Source: Candidatus Moraniibacteriota bacterium (GTDB lineage Bacteria; Patescibacteriota; Minisyncoccia; Moranbacterales; UBA2206). From it: 33,567 nucleotides of DNA. How positions within the stretch are numbered: the stretch's first letter is position 1; each line of letters starts with the position of its first letter. Under the pieces are notes generated by a model, which saw nothing but the letters and a program-made list of their open reading frames with translations, was not told the origin of the DNA and ran no database searches. The stretch is taken from the NCBI GenBank assembly GCA_030679985.1, contig JAUXSI010000011.1, forward strand, positions 1 to 33,567. Reading direction: 5' to 3'. Shown here in pieces: positions 10,769-31,065 of this stretch. Both the position numbers and the translations under genes were made by a program.

Positions 10769-11173
10769 TTAACTTTCGACTTCTTGCAGGAACTCTCTTA
10801 GCGGTTGGACTATGTCAGTCAATTCAACATACTCAATAATTTTATCAGCGACCCCCTTGGCAGTGTCGCGAAGCTGGACCCCTTTATTGATGATTATGAT
10901 TATCTTTTTGCCAGCGCCAAAAGCAATCCCGGCTTCAAGAGCTCTTCCAGTTGATGAAGTTGATAGGTCAATCAATAAAGCATCACAATTAAGGATTTCT
11001 GTCTTAGCTCGACTCATCAATTCTTGCGGATCATAAAACATCTTTTGGTAGTTTTCAACGTCACGAATAAAACAGAAATCATCAAATCCAGCTTCTTTTA
11101 CCAAATTACACAGATTTTCGATCTCGGACTTATTTTCACCTTCTTTAAAGGGGGCGGTAATAAAAATTTTCAT
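10769..11173 (-). CDS. Nucleoside 2-deoxyribosyltransferase-like protein
   Basis: A 134-residue protein starting MKIFITAPF, the usual start of nucleoside 2-deoxyribosyltransferase/DNPH1-type proteins. The diagnostic region is CDALLIDLSTSSTGRALEAG (63-82). Asp64 and Asp69 are at the substrate pocket, and Glu80 in the S-T-G-R-A-L-E context is the predicted nucleophile that forms the deoxyribosyl-enzyme intermediate. The family swaps bases between deoxynucleosides or hydrolyses deoxynucleoside monophosphates. An in-frame ATG at 11206 would add 11 residues, but that stretch lies inside repeat R3 and overlaps the predicted -10, so 11173 is preferred. It is downstream of the phosphoribosyltransferase on the same strand, in a nucleotide-salvage block. 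Confidence 0.85.
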   Translation of the reverse strand: MKIFITAPFKEGENKSEIENLCNLVKEAGFDDFCFIRDVENYQKMFYDPQELMSRAKTEILNCDALLIDLSTSSTGRALEAGIAFGAGKKIIIIINKGVQLRDTAKGVADKIIEYVELTDIVQPLREFLQEVES

Positions 11174-11194
11174 AGTAAGAGAGTTAAAAATAGA

Positions 11195-11240
11195 TTTATT
11201 TTTCATAACTGGCCTTATCCGTACCTACCAATAATTTGGC
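11195..11240. repeat. Repeat R3, copy 1, containing a probable minus-strand promoter
   Basis: The core at 11215-11240 matches 15783-15808 at 24 of 26 positions in the same orientation, and weaker similarity continues to about 11195. Read on the minus strand it contains TTGGTA (11231-11226), a 17-base spacer and TTATGA (11208-11203). This predicts a start near 11196, 23 bases before the deoxyribosyltransferase ATG. Confidence 0.7.
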
Positions 11241-11346
11241 AAGGAATGGGTGTCTGAGCCAAAAACATCTTATCCTTAATCTGAATATAGCAAATTATCG
11301 GGAAAAAATAAATGGAGGAAGCGGGACTGCTTCCTCCATAAGTGAA

Positions 11347-11991
11347 TTAACGTAAGCCTTCAATGATTTTCAAGAAGACTTCCGCTTTGTTGCCGAGATT
11401 TCGTCGAGCATAAGACTCGGCAATTTCTCGACACTCAACAAGCGTCGAGAGGGAATTTATCGGCACCTTGCGGTCTTTTGTGCCAACAGTTTTGGTGGCA
11501 CAAATCCTAGAAAAGCCTTTTACCGCTGCAGACTCCTGCTTGACCCAAGCGATGGCCTGCCAATCAGCTCCAGGAATCCAAGGCTCATTAACTTGTCGGA
11601 GGTGTCGGATTGTTGCGCCGGACGAAATAACATCATCCATCACGACAATATTCTTAACTCCAAGAAGCATTTGTGTTGAGGCGATTCGGTTAACAAATGT
11701 TTGGGGATTTTCGCCTGGAATCCACACTCTTTTGGCGTGTGGAGAAAATTTCCACGGCCACCGGTTTAACCAAGACGGTTTTGTTTTTTTAATGTACTTT
11801 TTGACAATTGACGCTCCGTTGCCTGGAAGCACAATTATTGTTGACCACGGATCAAGGCGTCCCCATCCTTGCCATGACAATAAGTCGTTTATCATTGCCT
11901 GAGCATCAAGAATTGTCAGCTCAAATTTTTCTGCCATTTCTTTTTTAACATCAGCCCCTACGCCGATATCAACAATCAAAAACCTTTCCAT
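11347..11991 (-). CDS. Type I phosphoribosyltransferase-like protein
   Basis: A 214-residue protein whose PRPP-binding motif is IVVMDDVISSGATI (115-128), with the two acidic residues Asp119 and Asp120 and the loop SSGAT that holds the phosphate. Type I phosphoribosyltransferases attach ribose-5-phosphate from PRPP to a free purine, pyrimidine or related base. The flanking sequence is divergent and does not identify the base. The start at 11991 is fixed by GGGAGG (12003-11998), six bases upstream, an unusually strong SD for this window. A longer open frame to 12024 would begin inside the leader just after the terminator and is rejected. It is preceded by a His-codon leader ORF and terminator hairpin, so expression is probably controlled by attenuation. 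Its upstream neighbour is the LOG-like gene. Confidence 0.85.
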   Translation of the reverse strand: MERFLIVDIGVGADVKKEMAEKFELTILDAQAMINDLLSWQGWGRLDPWSTIIVLPGNGASIVKKYIKKTKPSWLNRWPWKFSPHAKRVWIPGENPQTFVNRIASTQMLLGVKNIVVMDDVISSGATIRHLRQVNEPWIPGADWQAIAWVKQESAAVKGFSRICATKTVGTKDRKVPINSLSTLVECREIAESYARRNLGNKAEVFLKIIEGLR

Positions 11992-12026
11992 ATTCTTCCT
12001 CCCTTTTTGTGTTTGAGTCGGCAAAT

Positions 12027-12056
12027 GAAAAACCCCTTCTCTTTCAAGAAGGGGTT
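12027..12056 (-). terminator. Intrinsic terminator in the phosphoribosyltransferase leader (attenuator)
   Basis: A perfect 10-bp stem, AACCCCTTCT (minus 12056-12047) with AGAAGGGGTT (12040-12031), has a 6-base loop. The T run of five includes the last stem bases. It lies upstream of the gene's SD and ATG, so it can only act as a conditional terminator. Its 5' arm and loop are also complementary (17 of 18) to the segment at 12094-12111, which would form a competing antiterminator. Confidence 0.85.
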
Positions 12057-12081
12057 CATGGTTTTTGATGTCTAAACAATA

Positions 12082-12165
12082 TCAAATACAACCAACCTCT
12101 TCTTGAAAGAGTTGATTGTGGTGATGATTGAAATTTATAATTGCCCTGGATGACATTTTGCGCAT
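12082..12165 (-). CDS. Leader peptide with three consecutive His codons, upstream of the phosphoribosyltransferase
   Basis: A 27-codon ORF reading MRKM...NHHHNQLFQEEV..., ending in TGA. It begins four bases after the LOG-gene stop codon; an internal ATG at 12156 is an alternative start. The His codons CAT CAC CAC (12126-12118) are directly followed by a segment (12111-12094) that can pair with the 5' half of the terminator hairpin. A ribosome stalled at His would leave that segment free, favouring read-through. A ribosome reaching the stop would cover it, favouring termination. The peptide resembles the other His leader (12786-12860) in having HHH followed by F-x-[KE]-E-V. Function is inferred from architecture. 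Confidence 0.75.
   Translation of the reverse strand: MRKMSSRAIINFNHHHNQLFQEEVGCI
12094..12111 (-). promoter_or_regulatory. Antiterminator segment in the phosphoribosyltransferase leader
   Basis: The minus-strand sequence CTCTTTCAAGAAGAGGTT is complementary at 17 of 18 positions to minus-strand 12056-12039, the terminator's 5' arm plus loop and neighbouring bases. The two pairings exclude each other. It overlaps the leader-peptide codons immediately after the His triplet. Confidence 0.75.
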
Positions 12166-12169
12166 ATAA

Positions 12170-12715
12170 TTATTTGGCTAACAATCGTAATGCTTTGTCA
12201 ACCGCTTCTTCGGCATCATTGGCAGTTTCAATTTTGATCGTATTTCTGTCATCTAAAAATTTTCCCGCCAATTCTTTCGCCCAACCTGCTTGTGTAGTCA
12301 AGGCAATAATTGGTTTTTTGTTACGATAAGCGATTGCCATTTCTTCAAGTGTTCCAGCGCCCCCGCCGATAACGATTAACGCGTCACACATATTGACTAA
12401 AAGCAGCTCATCAAAACCATCAGCCTCCATCCCGCTTATTACTTCAATATCTGTAAAATTATTAGAGGTAAATCTCTTCGTTCCTTTTACAACTCCAACT
12501 GTTTGGCCGCCCGCCTCTTTAGCCCCCTTGGCTCCCGCCTCCATAATTCCGCTTTTTCCTCCAGTAATGACGATAACATTATTTTTTGCCAAAAGACTGC
12601 CGATTCTTTCAGCTTCGGTTATCATATTACTAGTAGCGCCTTGTGCTCCGTTGTAATCATCATTTCCAGCAGATCCAATGATGCCTATTTGATATTTTTT
12701 CTGTTGATTGTTCAT
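12170..12715 (-). CDS. LOG/SLOG family nucleotide-binding protein (TIGR00725-like)
   Basis: A 181-residue Rossmann-like protein of the LOG/lysine-decarboxylase-like superfamily. The first loop is IGIIGSAGNDD, then ITGGKSGIMEAGAKGA (about 50-65), and the hallmark GGGAGTLEE (117-125), a variant of PGGxGTxxE that binds the nucleotide phosphate and carries the catalytic glutamate. Characterised LOG proteins are nucleotide 5'-monophosphate phosphoribohydrolases, releasing base and ribose-5-phosphate; SLOG relatives only bind nucleotides. Next to a phosphoribosyltransferase and a deoxyribosyltransferase, a base-salvage role is plausible. It has no nearby SD: GGAGG at 12746-12742 is about 26 bases from the ATG and belongs to the hairpin. 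It is controlled by its own His-codon leader and terminator upstream. The following leader ORF starts four bases after its stop. Confidence 0.85.
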   Translation of the reverse strand: MNNQQKKYQIGIIGSAGNDDYNGAQGATSNMITEAERIGSLLAKNNVIVITGGKSGIMEAGAKGAKEAGGQTVGVVKGTKRFTSNNFTDIEVISGMEADGFDELLLVNMCDALIVIGGGAGTLEEMAIAYRNKKPIIALTTQAGWAKELAGKFLDDRNTIKIETANDAEEAVDKALRLLAK

Positions 12716-12734
12716 ATAATTAAAATTAAAAAAT

Positions 12735-12756
12735 AAAAAAACCTCCTGGAAAGAGG
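12735..12756 (-). terminator. Terminator-like hairpin in the LOG-gene leader (attenuator)
   Basis: CCTC (minus 12756-12753) and GAGG (12745-12742) close a 7-base loop, followed by seven consecutive T (12741-12735). The core stem is only 4 bp, extended by a G.U pair and two A-U pairs past a mismatch. The 5' arm plus loop CCTCTTTCC (12756-12748) is exactly complementary to GGAAAGAGG at 12808-12800, giving a 9-bp competing structure. Confidence 0.65.
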
Positions 12757-12785
12757 CATTATTTCGTTGATTTGTATAAAATTTA

Positions 12786-12860
12786 TTACCACAACAAAAC
12801 CTCTTTCCTAAAAATGAAAGAAGTGTGATGATGATAAATTTTATTTAAATCTTTTCTCAT
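12786..12860 (-). CDS. Leader peptide with three consecutive His codons, upstream of the LOG gene
   Basis: A 24-codon ORF starting MRKDLNKIYHHHTSF and ending in LLW and TAA TAA. Its His codons CAT CAT CAC (12833-12825) are followed by FRKEV codons. These codons contain the segment (12808-12800) able to pair with the 5' arm of the downstream hairpin. The ATG lies seven bases past a near-perfect promoter -10 element, so the transcript probably begins at or next to the start codon (leaderless). The same order, His triplet, pairing segment, hairpin with U-run, gene, recurs in front of the phosphoribosyltransferase. Confidence 0.75.
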   Translation of the reverse strand: MRKDLNKIYHHHTSFIFRKEVLLW

Positions 12861-12866
12861 AGTCTT

Positions 12867-12895
12867 AATATACACGATATTTAACATTTTGTCAA
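12867..12895 (-). promoter_or_regulatory. Strong sigma70-type promoter of the LOG-gene leader
   Basis: TTGACA (12895-12890), exactly 17 bases, then TATATT (12872-12867). The predicted start lies at about 12860, which is the A of the leader-peptide ATG. It is the best promoter match I found in the window. Confidence 0.8.
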
Positions 12896-13007: not shown

Positions 13008-13541
13008 TTAGACATATTTTAAAACATCACTCAATGTTTTAGCAATTTTTTTTACTCTCTTTCCGTACTTATCTTTCCTCATATAGCCTGACTCCATAAG
13101 CAGAGCATCCACGCCAACATCTTTGGCTGGCTTATAATCCCAGCGATAACTATCTCCGATCATCAATGCTTTATTTTTGAAAATACCGCGCTCTTTTAAA
13201 ATTCTAATAATAAATTCTCCTTTGGATCCATGAAATTCTCTCGTCGCATGTATTTCATCGAATAACTCATTGAGTTTAAAATGTGATACCTTGTGATTGA
13301 TGATAACATCAGCTTCTTTCGGTGGGTGCGGATGCGTCGAAAGCAGCACGGTAATAATTTTCTGCTTTTTTAATTTTTTCAAAGTATCCAACACGGTTGG
13401 AATAATTACTAAATGCCCGCAATGGTCATCAAGCGTTCCTTTTAGCGAATATATCCAATGTGGCTTTTCTTGATACTTAGTTTTTTTTGGATACCATAGC
13501 GTGCCATCGCCATCAAAAAATATTATCTTTTTATTTCGCAT
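13008..13541 (-). CDS. HAD-superfamily phosphatase
   Basis: A 177-residue small HAD hydrolase. Motif I is FFDGDGTLW (Asp10 nucleophile, Asp12 acid/base), motif II is LLSTHP (Ser68/Thr69), Lys107 is a candidate motif III lysine, and motif IV is GDSYRWD (129-135). The DGDGTLW form is common in MDP-1-like and polynucleotide/sugar phosphate phosphatases. It starts within the end of the kinase gene (ATG inside the last codons, 11-base overlap), so translation is coupled and the two products probably work on linked substrates. The substrate is not identifiable; nucleotides or polynucleotide 3' ends are possible. Confidence 0.88.
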   Translation of the reverse strand: MRNKKIIFFDGDGTLWYPKKTKYQEKPHWIYSLKGTLDDHCGHLVIIPTVLDTLKKLKKQKIITVLLSTHPHPPKEADVIINHKVSHFKLNELFDEIHATREFHGSKGEFIIRILKERGIFKNKALMIGDSYRWDYKPAKDVGVDALLMESGYMRKDKYGKRVKKIAKTLSDVLKYV

Positions 13542-14067
13542 TTGCGCTTAAAATTATATCCGCTACTGATTTAGCGGTTTCTTCCGGCGTCAAATTAGTC
13601 GTATCAACAACGGGGGCATTCAATTCCTCAAAGGCCTCTTTCATTTGACCCGAAATATAGATATTGCCATCGATGAATTCCTTGATTATTTTGCCAATGA
13701 CCTTTTGATTTTCATCAAAAACGCCATCCTTATTGGTGTATCTTTTCGTTAAGCGCTGGCGGATCGTTTCCGGTTGAGCGTCGAGGAATATTTTGACGAT
13801 TTCTAAAGACTCGGAATCCGGAAAATCCGCCACCTTAACAAAACCACAAATCACTGTGCTTTTATTTTCCTGCGCCAATCTCATCCCTTCATCTATCCAA
13901 TGCTGTGTTTCTGAAATTCTCCAATTCCTATCGGCATTTTCCGGCACGCCACGCTCATCGAAATCATGGATTTCAAATTTATCCGCTGGAAGTAACGAAC
14001 TCAAAAATGGCATTATCGTAGACTTGCCTATGCCATTAACCCCACTTATAAAATATATTTTATTCAT
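13531..14067 (-). CDS. P-loop kinase-like NTPase
   Basis: A 178-residue protein with Walker A GVNGIGKST (9-17) and a nucleoside/nucleotide-kinase-like layout: a short core, a conserved ICGF strand, IFLDAQPETIRQRL and a basic lid region (RQRLTKRYTNK). It probably phosphorylates a small molecule or a nucleic-acid 5' end. Its gene overlaps the HAD phosphatase gene by 11 bases, a split version of the kinase-plus-phosphatase pairing known in polynucleotide kinase/phosphatase, though the similarity is only in arrangement. Upstream is repeat R2 with TATTAT eight bases before the ATG and no SD, suggesting a leaderless message. Confidence 0.82.
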   Translation of the reverse strand: MNKIYFISGVNGIGKSTIMPFLSSLLPADKFEIHDFDERGVPENADRNWRISETQHWIDEGMRLAQENKSTVICGFVKVADFPDSESLEIVKIFLDAQPETIRQRLTKRYTNKDGVFDENQKVIGKIIKEFIDGNIYISGQMKEAFEELNAPVVDTTNLTPEETAKSVADIILSANAK

Positions 14068-14074
14068 GTTTTTT

Positions 14075-14113
14075 ATAATAAATTCGTTTTCATAGCGATA
14101 GCGGAGAAAACAC
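14075..14113. repeat. Repeat R2, copy 1, shared promoter-like module upstream of the kinase gene
   Basis: A 39-base element matching 15636-15674 at 34 positions. On the minus strand it contains CTCCGCTATCGCTA, a short A-rich stretch, then TATTAT (14080-14075) eight bases before the ATG. There is no TTGACA-like -35; the CGCTA direct repeat occupies that place. An inverted repeat GGAGAA/TTCTCC overlaps its upstream end. Confidence 0.75.
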
Positions 14114-14141
14114 CTTATTCTCCACTATAAAACAAAAGTCC

Positions 14142-14780
14142 TCAGCATATTTGTTTTTTATCTTTTAACTCTGTGAATTTCTTAAAAAAAATATCTAATG
14201 GGTACCTGAAAAATTCTTTAAAAAGGGGGTCAATAAACTCACTGTGATTTTCTCCCCTCTTTTGCATTTTATAGCCAAACAATTCAATAGGCGCTGATGT
14301 CAAAATTAAATCGACTATCCGCTCTTTTTCATTTTGCCCAACTTGGTATTTTTGGATGTATGGCTCGATTATCAAGTGTACAATTTCATGAAGTATGGTA
14401 TAAACCGAAGAAGATTTCATCCCTAAATTATAGATAATTTTATTTGGCACAGAATATGAACCGCCAACTCCATATTTTGTAAGCATTATTTTGAATCTTC
14501 TTCGTATTCTTTTACCGCAGACCTCTTGCAGATTTTCAAAGAACGAATTTTCTATTTCGGAAAATTTCTTAATTATTTCGTCTGCAGATCTTTGATAATC
14601 TTCTTCCTTATATTCATTTTTTAAAGCAAGAAATATTTTTTCTAAATTATCGACTCTTGGATTAATATCATTGGGGAATCGTGGACAATATCCAAACTCG
14701 TCATACCAAGTTAATTTTTCTAATGTATCTTTTATCCTCTGCCTCTCAAGTCTCTCGCTATATGTTATTACTAATGGCAT
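14142..14780 (-). CDS. HExxH-containing protein, probable metallopeptidase
   Basis: A 212-residue soluble protein with a zinc-binding HEIVH (131-135) in the helix TILHEIVHLIIEP, and acidic residues about 16-20 further on (Glu151, Glu153 in NEKER) that could be the third metal ligand. This is the pattern of gluzincin-like or ImmA-like minimal metallopeptidases. No signal peptide or membrane segment is visible, so it should act in the cytoplasm. It is AT-rich and sits between two repeat-bearing spacers. I do not recognise a named family and found no cognate antitoxin-like gene. The 306-base upstream spacer holds a short ORF with His codons. Confidence 0.75.
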   Translation of the reverse strand: MPLVITYSERLERQRIKDTLEKLTWYDEFGYCPRFPNDINPRVDNLEKIFLALKNEYKEEDYQRSADEIIKKFSEIENSFFENLQEVCGKRIRRRFKIMLTKYGVGGSYSVPNKIIYNLGMKSSSVYTILHEIVHLIIEPYIQKYQVGQNEKERIVDLILTSAPIELFGYKMQKRGENHSEFIDPLFKEFFRYPLDIFFKKFTELKDKKQIC

Positions 14781-14891
14781 ATTTAAAATTTATTACAGAA
14801 TAAATATTTGTTATTTACTTTATCATGCTATTTTTTTAATCTAATATCATCGGCACTCTTACATCCTCTTAATCCCTCGAGTTCGGCAATT

Positions 14892-14957
14892 CTAGAAACA
14901 ATTTAGGCGAAAAAACCATAACCTCATGTGCTTTATTGGATGATGTAAATTTTTCAT
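14892..14957 (-). CDS. Possible leader ORF upstream of the metallopeptidase-like gene
   Basis: A 21-codon frame beginning MKNLHHPIKHM and ending at TAG. Its ATG follows GATAAT by eight bases with TTTTAG 17 bases further up, so transcription could start at the ATG. It has three His codons, but not consecutive. The segment ATGAGGTTATGG followed by six T can pair weakly with CCAATAA upstream. No antiterminator partner like that of the two HHH leaders is found, and the regulated ATG is about 110 bases further on. Confidence 0.35.
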   Translation of the reverse strand: MKNLHHPIKHMRLWFFRLNCF

Positions 14958-14992
14958 TTCCTAAAATTATCTCGAACTTTATCTGTCACTAA

Positions 14993-15012
14993 AATAAAAT
15001 TTTGCTTTTTCT
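14993..15012 (+). repeat. Left arm of a 20-base perfect inverted repeat flanking the NUDIX gene
   Basis: The reverse complement of this 20-mer occurs exactly at 15699-15718. A second match, 14 of 14 bases, lies at 14946-14959 against 15753-15766. The gaps between the two matched blocks are nearly the same (33 and 34 bases), so the arms are about 67 bases long with a diverged middle. Confidence 0.85.
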
Positions 15013-15013
15013 G

Positions 15014-15062
15014 TTTTTGATTTTAGACAGAGGGGTTAGGGGTAAATGCCCAAAATCAAAAA
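15014..15062. repeat. 11-bp perfect inverted repeat with G/C-rich loop
   Basis: TTTTTGATTTT (15014-15024) pairs with AAAATCAAAAA (15052-15062) around a 27-base loop containing GGGG runs on + and a nested GGG/CCC pairing. It sits 25 bases beyond the NUDIX stop. No T tract follows on either strand, so it is a hairpin of unknown role, possibly 3'-end protection. Confidence 0.6.
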
Positions 15063-15086
15063 CTCCTTATTTAAAATACCTCCTTT

Positions 15087-15629
15087 TTATTTTCTCCTTC
15101 CATCTGAAAAATTTTGCATCTGCAAATATCTCGAAGCTTCTATTAATGCTTGTTTTTTTCCTACTTCAAAATTATCTTTCTCATTGAATTTATTGATTGC
15201 AGTTTCAATGTCCAACCATTCATAATCCTCGTGCTCATCGCTAAGCTTAACTTCGCCACTTTTATAGAAGACCAGTATTCCAATGCCTTTTCCATAAATT
15301 TGAATTGTTTTTTGCTTTTCTTTGTCTAGAGCATATTCTTTTTCATAATCTGAAAGATAGACCACCGGGCCTACTTCTATTTTTATACCAATTTCTTCCT
15401 TAATCTCTCGGGCTAAGCCCTCTTTAATTTTTTCTCCGTGTTCAACTGCACCTCCTGGTAAATCAAGCTTACCCGCATCTCGAATACTATCTCCAGATCT
15501 TCTTAAAATAAGGACCTTTCCATCTTTAAAAATAACTGCCTTGACTGAAATTTCAAAAAGCCGTCTTTCGATTTTTTTCTTCTTACTTCTCTCGCTCTCT
15601 TGCATCTTGTTATTTTTTTCTTCTATCAT
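15087..15629 (-). CDS. NUDIX hydrolase
   Basis: A 180-residue protein with a complete Nudix box at residues 60-82 (G60, E66, R74, E75, E78, E79, G81), preceded by ISVKAVIFKDGKVLILRR. A charged, Lys-rich N-terminal extension (about 1-22) precedes the domain. The substrate is unknown; nucleoside di- or triphosphate derivatives are typical. TATAAT (15641-15636) lies six bases before the ATG, predicting a leaderless transcript, and is part of repeat R2. The whole gene is bracketed by a 20-base perfect inverted repeat (14993-15012, 15699-15718). It is not a close copy of the NUDIX protein at 2299-2748. Confidence 0.9.
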   Translation of the reverse strand: MIEEKNNKMQESERSKKKKIERRLFEISVKAVIFKDGKVLILRRSGDSIRDAGKLDLPGGAVEHGEKIKEGLAREIKEEIGIKIEVGPVVYLSDYEKEYALDKEKQKTIQIYGKGIGILVFYKSGEVKLSDEHEDYEWLDIETAINKFNEKDNFEVGKKQALIEASRYLQMQNFSDGRRK

Positions 15630-25432: not shown

Positions 25433-27313
25433 GTGAAATACGGCAAGGCGACTTTTTTAATCTTTCTCGTTATAATAACTTCAAGTTTCTACTTCGGTTA
25501 TTCCAGACTTAGTCATTTTTCAGGAGTGGATGAATCCTTTTGGTCATATGACCGCGTACCGACCTTCTGGAACGCTGTCTCCGAGATGAGATGGAAAAAA
25601 ACCAATATCAGCGACAAGCCGGGCATACCGCTGGCGATAATTTCCGGGGCAGGCTTGCCTTTTTTAAATGAAAATCCGAAAGACCTGAAAGGCTTGCGCT
25701 ATAAACCGAAAACCTTCGAACAGCTCCAACAAATAAGGGATTCCTATTTCCACCTTCGTTTGCCGATTTTTCTTTTTACCTTGGCCGTAATGCCGTTATT
25801 TTATTGGATCATCAAAAAACTCCTAGGAAAGGACGTAGCGCGATTCTCCCTTATTTTCATAGGTCTTTCGCCTATTCTCCTGGGTATTTCGCTTATCATA
25901 AACGCCGATGCGATGCTCTGGATTTTAAGCGCCTTGTCCACGCTCAGCTTGTTTGTTTTTCTAAAAAACAATGAAAAGAAATACCTATTGCTTTCCGGTT
26001 TCTTCCTTGGCTTATCCGTCATCACCAAATATGTCGCCAATGTCCTTTTTATCTATTTCTTCGCACTTTTCTTTTTGGAATATATCCTGCATGCCCACAA
26101 GAACATGTCTTTGGGAAAATACCTGAAAATCGCCAGTATCAATTATTTGCTACTGTTTGCAACCGCTATGGCGACGGCCTTCCTATTTTTTCCCGCCACC
26201 TGGGTTAAGTTCTCCGTACTCATCAAAGCTACGGTCGGCAATGTGGTTTTTGCTTCGGTCTGGCCTATCTTTGTCGGAATCGTAAGCATTTTGGCTTTGG
26301 ACGCGTTAATTTTTAAAACGAAATTTTCAAGTATTTTATTTAATTTTTTAATTAAACATAAGCGCGGATTGACAAAAACCATCAGTGTGATATTCCTTCT
26401 TTTTATCATAGTCGTTTTTCTCCATATATTTTTTAAAATTAATATTTTCGACATCCAAGGGATGGTCGCCGCCCCCAAGGGTATAGGCTTGGATCTGGAC
26501 ACTAGGGATCCCCAGCTGGACACGCTCGTAGCCTCCCAAAAAGGGACTGGATTGTTTGATATATCCCAAAGATATATCGGAGCAATTCTGGCTGATTTCT
26601 ATAGCCTTATTTTCAGCATTTCGCCGATCATCCTTTTCGCCATACTATTCGCAGCCAGCAACATAGTGCGCAAAAAAGATATGGGCCGCGATTCCATAAC
26701 CGCAATATACATAATATTTTTTATCCTGCTTTTTTATCTCGGCTCGACCATTGATAATGTGATTGCCACCGTAAGATACCAGATTATGATATATCCGCTA
26801 GCTTTTATCCTGGCAGCTATCGGAATTTCAGAATTGATAAAAATTGAAAAAGTCGGAAAGTATCTGAAATTGCCAGTAGCATACGCGTTGATCATTCCCA
26901 TACTTCTTTCCAGTCTCTTTTTCATCAAACCGAACTATTTCGCTTATTCCAGTGAAATACTGCCTAGTAATTTTCTAGTCAATCTTAAAGGCATGGGGGA
27001 GGGCAGCTACGAAGCCACGGACTATCTTAATAATCTTCCAAACGCGCAGAACATAGCCATATGGTCCGATAAAGCGACGGCGTGCGATCAATTCGTCGGA
27101 TCTTGCTACTGGAACAAATCACAGCCAGCAAACGTCGACTATTATGTCGTTTCAACAGACCGCAAATCAAGGACCTTGAAATCGATTTCATTCGATCTGA
27201 CAAGCGCTTATGAAAACGAACATCCCGCTTTTGAGGTTTTAATCGGCAATAATCCGAATAATTTCGTAAAAGTCATAAAAAGTATCGATCTTAAAAAAAC
27301 TGGCGCACAATAA
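25433..27313 (+). CDS. GT-C glycosyltransferase, PMT-like (VDExxWSYDRVP type), first of three tandem paralogues
   Basis: A 626-residue multi-pass protein. GTG is the start: alignment with the third paralogue (MKYGKATF against MKSKIIFT) shows the N-termini correspond. The first outer loop has GVDESFWSYDRVPTFW (31-46), with Asp33-Glu34 the likely catalytic acids, followed by DKPGIP. Later features are RYQIMIYP and an outer-domain motif CDQFVGSC. Compared with the third paralogue it has an extra stretch of about 20 residues after APKGIG, in which a similar phrase (ASQKGTG) recurs, suggesting a small internal duplication. Its DNA is more AT-rich than that of the other two copies. Confidence 0.88.
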   Translation: MKYGKATFLIFLVIITSSFYFGYSRLSHFSGVDESFWSYDRVPTFWNAVSEMRWKKTNISDKPGIPLAIISGAGLPFLNENPKDLKGLRYKPKTFEQLQQIRDSYFHLRLPIFLFTLAVMPLFYWIIKKLLGKDVARFSLIFIGLSPILLGISLIINADAMLWILSALSTLSLFVFLKNNEKKYLLLSGFFLGLSVITKYVANVLFIYFFALFFLEYILHAHKNMSLGKYLKIASINYLLLFATAMATAFLFFPATWVKFSVLIKATVGNVVFASVWPIFVGIVSILALDALIFKTKFSSILFNFLIKHKRGLTKTISVIFLLFIIVVFLHIFFKINIFDIQGMVAAPKGIGLDLDTRDPQLDTLVASQKGTGLFDISQRYIGAILADFYSLIFSISPIILFAILFAASNIVRKKDMGRDSITAIYIIFFILLFYLGSTIDNVIATVRYQIMIYPLAFILAAIGISELIKIEKVGKYLKLPVAYALIIPILLSSLFFIKPNYFAYSSEILPSNFLVNLKGMGEGSYEATDYLNNLPNAQNIAIWSDKATACDQFVGSCYWNKSQPANVDYYVVSTDRKSRTLKSISFDLTSAYENEHPAFEVLIGNNPNNFVKVIKSIDLKKTGAQ

Positions 27314-27340
27314 TATTATTTTGTATAAATCTACGATCCT

Positions 27341-29215
27341 ATGAGCAAAAAAACGATCCACATCCTCATAATTTTCGCTGTGATCATCACCAATCTTTTT
27401 TTCGGCTTGCCGCGGCTTGCCCGCTACACCGCCGTGGATGAAACGCTCTGGTCATACGACCGGGTGCCGAAATTCTGGCGCAGCATCGAAAAGGGCAACT
27501 GGCGCGGAACCAACCTGTGCGACAAGCCCGGCGTCACTTTGGCGATAATCTCCGGCCTCGGACTGCCTTTTATCCCCGATCCCAGAGATTATGAAAAATT
27601 GCAATTCCACCCGAAAACCCCGGAGCAATTGGCGATGATCGAAAAGATTTATTTCTCGCTCCGGTTGCCGGTCTATCTCTTCACCTTGGCCTCATTGTTC
27701 GCTTTCTATTTCCTGCTTAAAAGATTGCTTTCGGATGATATTGCCCTTCTGTCAGTCATTTTTATCGGACTTTCCCCCATCCTCCTGGGCATCTCGCTCA
27801 TCGTGAATACCGATGCCATCCTCTGGATTTTGATGCCGCTGACGTTCATCAGCTTCCTGATTTATCAGAAAGAAGACAATCGGAAATTCCTCTACCTAGC
27901 CGGTTTTCTCTTGGGACTCGGGATTCTTGACAAGTTCGTGGCCAATTTCCTTTTCCCCTTCCTATTAGCGCTGGTATTGTTAAAATATGTTTTAAGCGAC
28001 CACGCCCGAACCGAAGACAAAATCGGCTTTTTGAAGAAATCGATGATTGACTATCTAATTCTCATCGCGATCGCCCTCGTAACCATTTTCATCTTTTATC
28101 CCTCCGCCTGGATTAAGCCTAAGGAATTGTTGAACACCACTATCTACAGTATGGCGCTCCGGAAGATGTGGCCGCTGATTACTAGCGCCATCGGACTCAT
28201 CCTGGCGGATGTCTTCCTTTTGCGCGGCGCCGTTCTCAGGAAAATCTTGGATTTTTTCTCGACCCACCGGATAGCACTTATCCGATCGGCCAGCCTGGCC
28301 ATCCTAGGTATGGTCGCTTTCGTCTTTATCAATACTTATTTAGGAATGAAACCTTATGACTTCCAAGAAATCTTGGCCAATCCGAAGCCAGATATGCCAT
28401 TTGTCAATGAATTTCCGCTTAATTTTTTCTCGGCTTTCTTCCCGCTCCTGTTCGGACTCATCCCCCTTGCCGCCATCGCGCTTATCGCGGCGATCGTTTT
28501 TTTGGTGAAGATGCGGCCGTCTGACGCCGTTTCGGAAAACAGCCGGGTTTACGCGTTCTATTTTCTCCTGTTCATCCTCGTCTTTTATCTGGGCAATTCG
28601 GTTTCCAGCATAGGTTCGACCGTCCGCTACCAGATAGTCAATTACCCGGTTGCAGCCATAATCGCCGCCATTGGTCTATCTGGGATAATCAAACTTGAAC
28701 CCGTCAAAAAATATTTCCTCGGGATAAAATTCTCTCTCTTGGTAGGTTTTATTTTCATAATTTCCATTGTTTCTCTTGCGCAAACCAAGCCGTTCTTCCT
28801 GGCCTATTCTTCAAGCCTCCTGCCGGACAGATTTATGACCAACCTGAAGGATATGGGCGACGGCAGTTGGGAAACGTCCGCCTACCTCAACAGCTTGCCC
28901 GGCGCGGAACGGCTGGTGATCTGGTCGGACAAAAAGCAGGTCTGCGAAAAATTCGTCGGCCGATGCAAGACCGGTTTCAGATATCAGGATCTTGCCAATT
29001 TCAAATTCGATTATCTCGTAGCCTCCGCCGGCGGAAAAGCGGAAACCCTCAGCCGCTCATCCCAGCGGAAAGCGACTTTCGAATCGGCCTTCGGCCCCAT
29101 CAACGTGGAAAAACTCTATGCTCCGGACGATTTTTACGACTTCCGGGTCAATATCGACGGCAAGCCGGCGGACTTTATCAAAGTCGTGAATCCTGCTACA
29201 ATATCAAATGACTGA
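27341..29215 (+). CDS. GT-C glycosyltransferase, PMT-like (VDExxWSYDRVP type), second paralogue
   Basis: A 624-residue paralogue with AVDETLWSYDRVPKFW (31-46), DKPGVT, RYQIVNYP and CEKFVGRC. It is the most diverged of the three: its middle loop (GMKPYDFQEILANPKPDMP) differs from the APKGIG loop shared by the flanking copies, so its acceptor may differ. The gene follows the first copy after 27 bases and precedes the third after 26 bases, without visible terminators. The family transfers sugars from polyprenyl-phosphate donors on the outer side of the membrane. Confidence 0.88.
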   Translation: MSKKTIHILIIFAVIITNLFFGLPRLARYTAVDETLWSYDRVPKFWRSIEKGNWRGTNLCDKPGVTLAIISGLGLPFIPDPRDYEKLQFHPKTPEQLAMIEKIYFSLRLPVYLFTLASLFAFYFLLKRLLSDDIALLSVIFIGLSPILLGISLIVNTDAILWILMPLTFISFLIYQKEDNRKFLYLAGFLLGLGILDKFVANFLFPFLLALVLLKYVLSDHARTEDKIGFLKKSMIDYLILIAIALVTIFIFYPSAWIKPKELLNTTIYSMALRKMWPLITSAIGLILADVFLLRGAVLRKILDFFSTHRIALIRSASLAILGMVAFVFINTYLGMKPYDFQEILANPKPDMPFVNEFPLNFFSAFFPLLFGLIPLAAIALIAAIVFLVKMRPSDAVSENSRVYAFYFLLFILVFYLGNSVSSIGSTVRYQIVNYPVAAIIAAIGLSGIIKLEPVKKYFLGIKFSLLVGFIFIISIVSLAQTKPFFLAYSSSLLPDRFMTNLKDMGDGSWETSAYLNSLPGAERLVIWSDKKQVCEKFVGRCKTGFRYQDLANFKFDYLVASAGGKAETLSRSSQRKATFESAFGPINVEKLYAPDDFYDFRVNIDGKPADFIKVVNPATISND

Positions 29216-29241
29216 TTCTTATAATTCATTTAAAAACCTTT

Positions 29242-31065
29242 ATGAAAAGCAAGATTATATTCACTCTTTTGATTTTTGTCGCTATTGCCGCTTCCAGCCT
29301 CTATTTCGGCCTGCCGCGGCTGAAGGATTTTTCCGGCGTAGATGAACCCTACTGGTCATACGACCGGGTGCCGAAATTCTGGGAAAGCGTCAGCGAAGGC
29401 AAATGGCGGAGCACCAACATCTGCGATAAACCCGGTATAACTTTGGCGATGGTTTCCGGCGCCGGATTGCCTTTCATTCCGGATGATCCGCGCGATTACG
29501 AATATCTGCGCCAACACCCTAAGACACCGGCCGAAGTCGAAACCATCCGCGACGCCTATTTCTATCTGCGCTTGCCGGTTTTCCTTTTTACGTTGGCTGT
29601 CTTGCCGCTCTTCTATTTCCTTATCAAAAAACTCCTCGGCAAAACCACGGCCCGCTTCGCCCTCATTTTCATCGGCTTCTCCCCCGTCCTTCTCGGCATC
29701 TCGCTCATCATCAACTCCGACGCGATGCTCTGGATCCTGACCGCCCTTTCGACCCTCAGCCTTTTCGTTTTCCTCAAAGAAGGCGCGAAAAAATATCTGC
29801 TTCTGTCCGGTTTTTTCCTCGGCCTATCCGTCATCACCAAATACGTCGCCAACATCCTGTTCGTCTATTTCTTTTTCATTTTCCTTTTGGAATATATCCT
29901 CTACGCCCACAAACACATCGAACTTAAAAAGTATCTTCCGCAAGCCTTCTTGAACTATTTGATCCTTTTCGCCGTCGCGATGGCAACCGCCTTCGCCTTT
30001 TTTCCCGCTACCTGGGTGAAATTCTCCGTCCTATTGAACGCCACGATCACTAATGCCGTTTTCTCTTCGACCTGGCCGCTTTTCGCCGGAATCATCGGGT
30101 TGCTGGCGTTGGACATCCTGTTTTTCAAAGAAAAAATTTCAACCCCGGTGTTTGACTTTTTCATCCGATACAAAACAGCGCTCCTAAAAACGATCGGTGG
30201 CGTTTTTCTCGCGCTTTCCTTCTTCGTCTTCCTGCATGTCTATTTAGGCGTCAATGTGATCGATATCGAATCGATCATCGCCTCCCCCAAAGGCATCGGT
30301 CAGGGCAATCTGACGGAAAGGTATCTCGGCGCGATTTCAGCCGACCTCTACAGTCTCTTTTTCAGCATCTCGCCTTTGGTTTTGTTTTTCCTGCTCTTTT
30401 CGGTTTTCGGGATTTTCAGAAAAAAAGAACTCAAACGCGAATCCATCACCGCCGTCTACATCATTATTTTCATACTGGTCTTCTATCTCGGCTCGGCCGT
30501 CAATGAAGTGGTCACCACCGTCCGCTATCAGATAATGACTTATCCATTGGCTTTCGTCCTGGCAGCCATCGGCGCCAAGCAATTCATCAAATTGGAGAAG
30601 ATTAAGGCACTGGTCCCGGCCTACGCCGCCTATCTCGTACTCATCCCGCTTCTGCTTTTGAGCCTTTTCTCCATCAAGCCGCATTTCCTAGCCTATGCCT
30701 CGGAAATCCTGCCGAAGGATATGATCGTCAATCTCAAGGGTATGGGTGAGGGCAGCTTGGAAGCCGCCTACTATCTCAACACTTTGCCGGGCGCCCACGA
30801 GATGACCATCTGGGCTGACAAAGGCGCGGTTTGCGAAGCTTTCGTCGGCCGCTGTTTCATCGATTTTAAGAACAAAACCTTCAAGGAAAACCGGATAGAC
30901 TACTTCGTCGTTTCCACCGATCGCCGGTCGCGAAGCTTGAAAATGTCAGGCGGCCAGGTCGGCTATGCCGATTTCAACAAACTCTATGCCGCCCAAGATC
31001 CGGTCTTCGAGGTCATCATCGGCGGACGCGACCTCAACTTCGTCAAAGTCATCAAGGCCGAATAG
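29242..31065 (+). CDS. GT-C glycosyltransferase, PMT-like (VDExxWSYDRVP type), third paralogue
   Basis: A 607-residue paralogue with GVDEPYWSYDRVPKFW (32-47), DKPGIT, ASPKGIGQ, RYQIMTYP and CEAFVGRC. Long stretches match the first copy almost word for word (for example LSLFVFLKE and KKYLLLSGFFLGLSVITKY), so these two arose from a recent duplication that either spanned or was later interrupted by the second copy. It ends 33 bases before a strong terminator. Confidence 0.88.
   Translation: MKSKIIFTLLIFVAIAASSLYFGLPRLKDFSGVDEPYWSYDRVPKFWESVSEGKWRSTNICDKPGITLAMVSGAGLPFIPDDPRDYEYLRQHPKTPAEVETIRDAYFYLRLPVFLFTLAVLPLFYFLIKKLLGKTTARFALIFIGFSPVLLGISLIINSDAMLWILTALSTLSLFVFLKEGAKKYLLLSGFFLGLSVITKYVANILFVYFFFIFLLEYILYAHKHIELKKYLPQAFLNYLILFAVAMATAFAFFPATWVKFSVLLNATITNAVFSSTWPLFAGIIGLLALDILFFKEKISTPVFDFFIRYKTALLKTIGGVFLALSFFVFLHVYLGVNVIDIESIIASPKGIGQGNLTERYLGAISADLYSLFFSISPLVLFFLLFSVFGIFRKKELKRESITAVYIIIFILVFYLGSAVNEVVTTVRYQIMTYPLAFVLAAIGAKQFIKLEKIKALVPAYAAYLVLIPLLLLSLFSIKPHFLAYASEILPKDMIVNLKGMGEGSLEAAYYLNTLPGAHEMTIWADKGAVCEAFVGRCFIDFKNKTFKENRIDYFVVSTDRRSRSLKMSGGQVGYADFNKLYAAQDPVFEVIIGGRDLNFVKVIKAE

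Follow-up and report, generated by a model that had tools for sequence, protein, structure and literature searches.

Attenuation at histidine codons is described for the enterobacterial his operon, whose attenuator (Rfam RF00514, His_leader) combines a short leader peptide containing tandem His codons with the hairpins 1:2, 2:3 and 3:4 and a U-run terminator, the outcome being set by the position of the ribosome. Candidate His attenuators were also reported in the Bacillus cereus group, Eubacteriales and Erysipelotrichales, where a terminator/antiterminator switch follows a leader peptide with a run of three to five His codons and controls his operons in genomes devoid of HisR (PMC9413887). 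HisR itself (YerC/YecD, TIGR02531), a repressor of the TrpR family, has a regulon in Firmicutes, and the R. gnavus protein binds its operator in vitro in the presence of histidine (PMC9413887). Two leader ORFs with attenuation within one operon are found in Salmonella mgtCBR, where a single long leader region ahead of the first gene contains the two short ORFs (PMC3641672). Features of several of these systems were found at a locus of a Candidatus Moraniibacteriota bacterium (GCA_030679985.1, contig JAUXSI010000011.1, positions 1 to 33,567; this whole stretch of 33,567 nucleotides is called the window below).

All features of the locus are on the minus strand and, as read from the sequence, are predicted to form a single unit in the order promoter, leader 1, LOG, leader 2, PRT, terminator. 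An initial annotation had pointed out two leader ORFs, with three His codons each, ahead of the LOG-like and PRT genes, and the string F-x-[KE]-E-V in both peptides; all of this is read directly from the sequence. The predicted sigma-70 promoter of the operon (TTGACA-17-TATATT, 12867..12895), a consensus match only, has 11/12 matching positions and is the best in the region. The ATG of leader 1 lies about 7 nt past its -10 box, and the leader 1 mRNA may be nearly leaderless. Leader peptide 1 (MRKDLNKIYHHHTSFIFRKEVLLW, 24 codons, 12786..12860), recognised from its sequence and stall profile, carries the sensing codons CAT CAT CAC at 12825..12833. Folding and a hairpin scan place its hairpin 1:2 at 12799..12824 (segment 1 at about 12824-12816, segment 2 at about 12807-12799), and its segment 3 at 12748..12756; in the simulated stall the antiterminator forms by pairing of 12808-12800, GGAAAGAGG, with 12756-12748, of which it is the exact reverse complement (9/9). 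The terminator hairpin 3:4 (12741..12757, followed by T7) has a weak stem, of -6.6 kcal/mol. The LOG-like gene follows at 12170..12715, and 4 nt after its stop codon leader 2 begins, inside the operon. Leader peptide 2 (MRKMSSRAIINFNHHHNQLFQEEVGCI, 27 codons, 12082..12165), likewise taken from the sequence, has its sensing codons CAT CAC CAC, located by a per-codon stall scan, at 12118..12126; its segment 2 (12094..12111) pairs with segment 3 (12039..12056) at 17/18 positions, in competition with a 12-bp terminator hairpin 3:4 with a T-rich tail (12030..12057, -17.9 kcal/mol). The PRT gene, coding for a type-I phosphoribosyltransferase by fold and motif (VVMDDVISSGAT), spans 11347..11991, and an operon terminator, with an 11-bp stem and a T-rich tail, lies 3' of it at 11312..11339. 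Both pairings, and the competing hairpins ending in a U-run, had been proposed initially together with a folding check; folding and stall simulation return mutually exclusive structures in both leaders, each more stable than its shuffles (z -4.8 and -4.2).

LOG and PRT lie within a minus-strand run of genes of nucleotide flavour (13008-15629 and 10769-11206), including a HAD hydrolase, an AAA/adenylate-kinase-like protein, a Nudix hydrolase and a weak nucleoside deoxyribosyltransferase match. Elsewhere in the window (25433-31065), three consecutive large genes for membrane proteins (about 610-626 aa) resemble one another and look like tandem duplicates.

In all likelihood, leaders 1 and 2 are histidine-specific, translation-coupled transcription attenuators, arranged in series in one operon that is part of a histidine regulon of Patescibacteria. 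The basis, by sequence and computation, consists of the leaders themselves, the exclusive structures, the His codons in the antitermination window, the occurrence in 17 genomes, and the linkage to hisS, hisG, hisI and hisR. From these it is inferred that the leaders are translated, that transcription terminates there in the cell and that the signal sensed is tRNA-His charging. With charged His-tRNA plentiful, the ribosome would reach the leader stop codon and cover segment 2, the 3:4 hairpin would form and transcription would stop; with charged His-tRNA scarce, the ribosome would stall on the His codons, segment 2 would pair with segment 3, the terminator would be lost and the downstream gene would be transcribed. 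Because leader 2 is inside the operon, PRT would be gated twice, and a response sharper than that of LOG is therefore expected for it. The regulon would also employ the HisR (YerC) repressor in some lineages, and the enzymes presumably help the cell to obtain histidine or to adjust to its lack.

The mechanism is that of known his-type attenuation, while the phylum, the targets, the serial arrangement of two gates for a single signal and the apparent use of the end of hisR as a leader are new. Compared with the enterobacterial attenuator, no more than three His codons are consecutive, the phylum is another one and two switches are in series; LOG and PRT are regulated, no his operon follows, and hisD was not found in the genome. 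Rfam searches gave, for RF00514, 24.8 bits for leader 2 and 17.4 bits for leader 1 (gathering 49), and no Rfam family was matched at its gathering threshold; because of these scores, and of the lack of a his operon downstream in the window, the leaders were not filed under RF00514. The Firmicutes candidates are alike in their His-run leader peptide, but they control his operons in genomes without HisR, whereas here the targets are others and HisR and attenuators often occur together. Similarly to the Firmicutes HisR regulon, a hisR gene and operators near ACTTTAGTATACTAAAGT flank the module in several relatives; unlike in that regulon, the targets are LOG, PRT, AspA-like and GNAT genes, the hisR tail is an apparent leader in six genomes, and the window genome is without HisR. 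In contrast to mgtCBR, two consecutive genes are gated by the same type of signal codon, the second leader being inside the operon. No report of leader-peptide attenuation in Patescibacteria was found in the open-access literature searched, a scope outside which most subscription journals fall.

The effect of ribosome position was evaluated by a stall model, in which the ribosome footprint is taken to reach 13 nt beyond the first base of the A-site codon and the probability of the terminator, P(terminator), is computed with the RNA past it allowed to fold; folding kinetics and RNA-polymerase pausing do not enter the simulation. The leaders tested had been picked by His codons and terminator, not by stall-dependent pairing. 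In the window leaders, stalling on the His codons brought P(terminator) to about 0 (0.00 at any of the three codons of leader 1), and a ribosome at the stop codon gave 0.91-0.96. In the 18 leaders first tested, the value was at most 0.2 at a His codon in 16, and 0.88-0.99 at the stop codon in all 18; in the relative G893 it was at most 0.2 at the first His only. When the stretch from His codon to terminator was dinucleotide-shuffled (200 shuffles per leader), mean P(terminator) rose to 0.75-0.97, and in 16/18 leaders no more than 2/200 shuffles reached the real value (Fisher p 5e-19, which overstates independence, some leaders being related by descent). Among four cases added later, the G015 leader and the G467 hisR tail switched as expected, and the hisR tails of G450 and G299 partly. 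The G406 and G849 leaders were devoid of a stall/stop switch in the simulation. Overall, His stalling disrupts the terminator in 18/22 candidates. A scan of leader 2, codon by codon, revealed that the terminator is abolished only with Asn13, His14 or His15 in the A site, all other codons leaving it at 0.7 or higher. The antitermination window is equally narrow in G504 and G564, somewhat broader, with the His codons still at its centre, in G765, G810 and G450, and wider, opening at the start codon, in the remaining leaders.

A comparison with genomes of relatives had been suggested along with the initial proposal, and it revealed the same arrangement in 16 other Patescibacteria, for a total of 22 attenuator candidates in 17 genomes, that of the window included. 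PRT is rare, being found in 4/384 genomes of the class; in the window's family it is present in none of the 33 other genomes, and LOG in 2. Since a contig scan with PRT gave only two relatives, LOG was chosen as search bait. Searches in IMG/VR, plasmids and phages gave no relatives of PRT, and those with the LOG alignment in IMG/VR none of LOG. In G299, from a family other than that of the window, LOG is followed by a tandem-His leader (MKKLIFNNSKLHHRTSFS), a terminator and PRT. His leaders also lie between LOG and a PRT in G504 (SHHRNLF), G506 (FHHYNLF), G467 (SHHTNLFLEEV) and G450 (KHHHNPS), and in G564 the leader found between LOG and PRT, LHHYHQLFQEEV, is close to leader 2 of the window; the G564 relative of leader 2 in this position reads MNIFLNKPTQNKLHHYHQLFQEEVDGF. 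The order LOG, His leader, PRT is found again in G299, G504, G564 and, read in the same way, G506. In other genomes a His leader is located ahead of LOG, as in G864 (YYHHNF), G849 (PHHHS), G765 (SHHTN), G694 (LHHHNH), G406 (HYHHSH) and G893 (YHGAWHYH), while in G015, of the window's own family, it is ahead of hisG (LKHHLK). Leaders with a terminator were found upstream of LOG in 8/19 near relatives vs 0/20 distant paralogs; a ninth match flagged among the near relatives (L053, VFHLSHFSLK) was judged spurious. The link between His leader and LOG is not universal, because the search upstream of LOG found no leader in L046-L050, L052, G687 and G628.

The initial annotation had called the target unusual, no his biosynthesis gene being regulated here. 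Yet the target is not detached from histidine, for in relatives the same operon has hisG/hisI, HisR or hisS: hisS adjoins the leader or module in G406, G694, G849 and G015, and hisG and/or hisI are in the same operon in G015, G877 and G639. The G015 locus (L041 3360-8093), from the window's family, has the operon-like order hisS, His leader (MKSNKGFNLKHHLKVLI), hisG, LOG, PRT2. HisR (TIGR02531) is encoded upstream of LOG in ten genomes (G299, G504, G506, G467, G450, G535, G564, G765, G810 and G877), as called by family scans in five of the ten and by evident similarity in the others. Palindromes with 1-3 mismatches from ACTTTAGTATACTAAAGT are present at the module in G504, G506, G467, G450, G535, G299 and G401, against about 0.2 HisR-like palindromes per 100 kb of shuffled sequence, and both hisR gene and operator were seen in the first five of these. 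Searches of the window genome (1.07 Mb, 93% complete), on which all genome-wide statements about it rest, did not find HisR or any detectable histidinol dehydrogenase (hisD), and no HisR site was seen in the window; the bacterium seems unable to make histidine. Among 18 module genomes tested (G015 and G893 being outside the 18), hisD was found in one, G639, which is without a His leader.

In six genomes, hisR closes with a tail encoding HH or HHH, shortly ahead of a terminator hairpin: G564 (L117 1649-2030), G467 (L113 3359-3703), G450 (L114 4068-4373), G535 (L078, minus strand), G810 (L112 2823-3198) and G877 (L102 5003-4633, minus strand). The tail of G299 is similar, with a single His codon. 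Judging by sequence, the repressor gene seems to provide an attenuator leader with its final codons. Of the HisR-like palindromes, three (L040 2647, 5177, 5514; G401) lie around a nucleoside phosphorylase and a HAD-PRT fusion, where no His leader was detected, and one (L039 1974-1991; G299) is strangely sited for an operator, in the gap where PRT and a PepE-like peptidase gene converge with their 3' ends.

These data bear on the nature of the signal. The same attenuators could respond to slow decoding of NAY codons, depending on the queuosine state of tRNA-His/Asn/Tyr/Asp, or to a general slowdown of translation: the His run frequently has Asn and Tyr codons beside it (NHHHN, YYHH, HHYH), and modified bases would be conceivable substrates of LOG and PRT. 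However, the narrow antitermination windows have His codons in common, and the neighbours hisS, hisG, hisI and HisR answer to histidine (PMC9413887). A signal of this kind is accordingly improbable, though it keeps somewhat more credit than the alternatives considered below.

The enzymes themselves had been ascribed to base salvage, which is only a guess from fold families. The LOG-like protein passes the cut-off of TIGR00725 (109.8 bits vs 106.9) and matches PF18306 (SLOG cluster 4) with an E of 2e-35, and is below the cut-offs of the cytokinin LOG models (TIGR00730, 48.7 vs 96.35; NF058542, 34.1 vs 300); it is thus of the TIGR00725/LDcluster4 type rather than a curated cytokinin LOG. Its nearest solved relatives by profile are 1rcu ('conserved hypothetical protein VT76') and molybdenum cofactor carrier proteins, cytokinin phosphoribohydrolases being further off. 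Profile searches with PRT gave no Pfam or NCBIfam match, the threshold of PF00156 not being reached. The best Foldseek matches of its AlphaFold model (pLDDT 90.5) are all type-I PRTases, with the Sulfolobus HGXPRT, a 6-oxopurine enzyme, at the top (E 2e-7); the predicted fold, together with the PRPP-binding motif VVMDDVISSGAT, identifies PRT as a putative type-I phosphoribosyltransferase. A second PRT-like family, PRT2, with the motif CERDF-x-x-G-x-P-x-x-GR, replaces PRT in several module loci (L041 7137-8093; L111 5704-6561; L112 5177-6043; L113 4484-5347; L114 5174-6046); its Pribosyltran/PRTase-CE matches are weak at most, and its predicted structure is of unusable quality (pLDDT 48.6). Fusions join LOG to an AspA/AstE-type deacylase in G765 and G810 (L093 1504-2763, L097 1507-2742) and to a HAD-like phosphatase in G893 (L101 1495-2499), and a HAD phosphatase-PRT fusion is encoded in G401 (L040 2853-4244), beside the nucleoside phosphorylase with HisR-like sites. 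As annotated from sequence, these fusions would link LOG, the AspA/AstE-like deacylase, the HAD phosphatase and PRT in a common function. Genes of the GNAT and PfkB types are found repeatedly in the module loci of relatives, and the partner of LOG may be PRT, PRT2 or HisG. Fusions and alternative partners together suggest a single histidine-controlled pathway that relies on phosphoribosyl chemistry, in cells that lack a complete his pathway; it may supply histidine, recover a precursor or constitute a starvation response.

An RNA-binding phosphoribosyltransferase similar to PyrR, possibly PRT itself, could also control the hairpins, the ORFs being incidental. PyrR is a type-I PRTase, and PyrR attenuators have similar exclusive hairpins. 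These probably explain a sub-threshold Rfam PyrR match on leader 2 (12113-12025, minus strand; 26 bits vs gathering 54). Such control is highly improbable, since a His leader precedes LOG without an adjacent PRT in G406, G849, G694 and G893, and the conserved His codons would be left unexplained.

When the upstream halves of leaders were swapped between genomes, termination was mostly restored (mean 0.65 for non-cognate vs 0.11 for cognate combinations, permutation p 5e-5), with the caveat that short, weak terminators, such as that of leader 1, are readily disrupted by foreign halves too. This result is covariation in another form. It also bears on nascent-peptide arrest, in which a small molecule would cause the His-containing peptide to stall the ribosome by itself. 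Leader peptides of comparable length are capable of this; arrest peptides, however, conserve a motif, whereas here the residues next to the His run differ freely from genome to genome and what is kept is the pairing of each leader with its own terminator, so that arrest is scarcely credible.

Specificity was evaluated by a finder that required tandem His codons in frame, a stop codon close by, a terminator and a stall/stop switch. Only leaders 1 and 2 matched in the window, and a run over the window and 16 stretches of relatives (313 kb, both strands) gave 13 matches, 12 of them ahead of LOG/PRT-module genes. Elsewhere in the window genome, among the matches listed (100 of the 139 CAYCAYCAY sites), 89 HHH-bearing stretches included no convincing further attenuator; four marginal finder matches, two of which are the same site, do not resemble one. 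CAYCAYCAY is about four times commoner in this genome than the reversed pattern (139 vs 37), probably owing to coding-strand codon runs, and most of its sites are not leaders. Ordinary intergenic terminators beside random His-rich ORFs, without any regulation, might be thought of, given the abundance of short ORFs and terminators and the excess of CAYCAYCAY, but such a coincidence, which the initial annotation had already argued against, is contradicted by the shuffle, swap and background tests and by the recurrence at one gene boundary in 17 genomes, and deserves hardly any credence.

Histidine-specific attenuation by stalling at the His codons, as initially proposed, is strongly supported by the stall simulations, by conservation in 16 additional genomes and by neighbouring genes for hisS, hisG, hisI and HisR. 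More tentatively, and with a probability well short of even, histidine 'auxotrophs' of Patescibacteria might use the LOG-PRT operon, along with HAD, AspA-like, GNAT and sometimes HisG/HisI proteins, as a so far unrecognised route to histidine or one of its precursors, through synthesis or recovery. PRT and PRT2 would occupy the position that HisG has in other lineages, and the end of the hisR reading frame would serve as a leader, so that repressor and attenuator would be combined in one gene.

Ultra-small, gene-poor bacteria without histidinol dehydrogenase thus keep an elaborate histidine sensing, sometimes by both repressor and attenuator, in the service of LOG, PRT and other genes without assigned function. 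Since such regulation normally controls the making or the import of the amino acid, the attenuators point to what LOG, PRT and their partners do. The recurrence of the leaders across the phylum, often beside HisR or hisS, points to an unrecognised histidine-controlled pathway, and how these organisms obtain histidine becomes a testable question.
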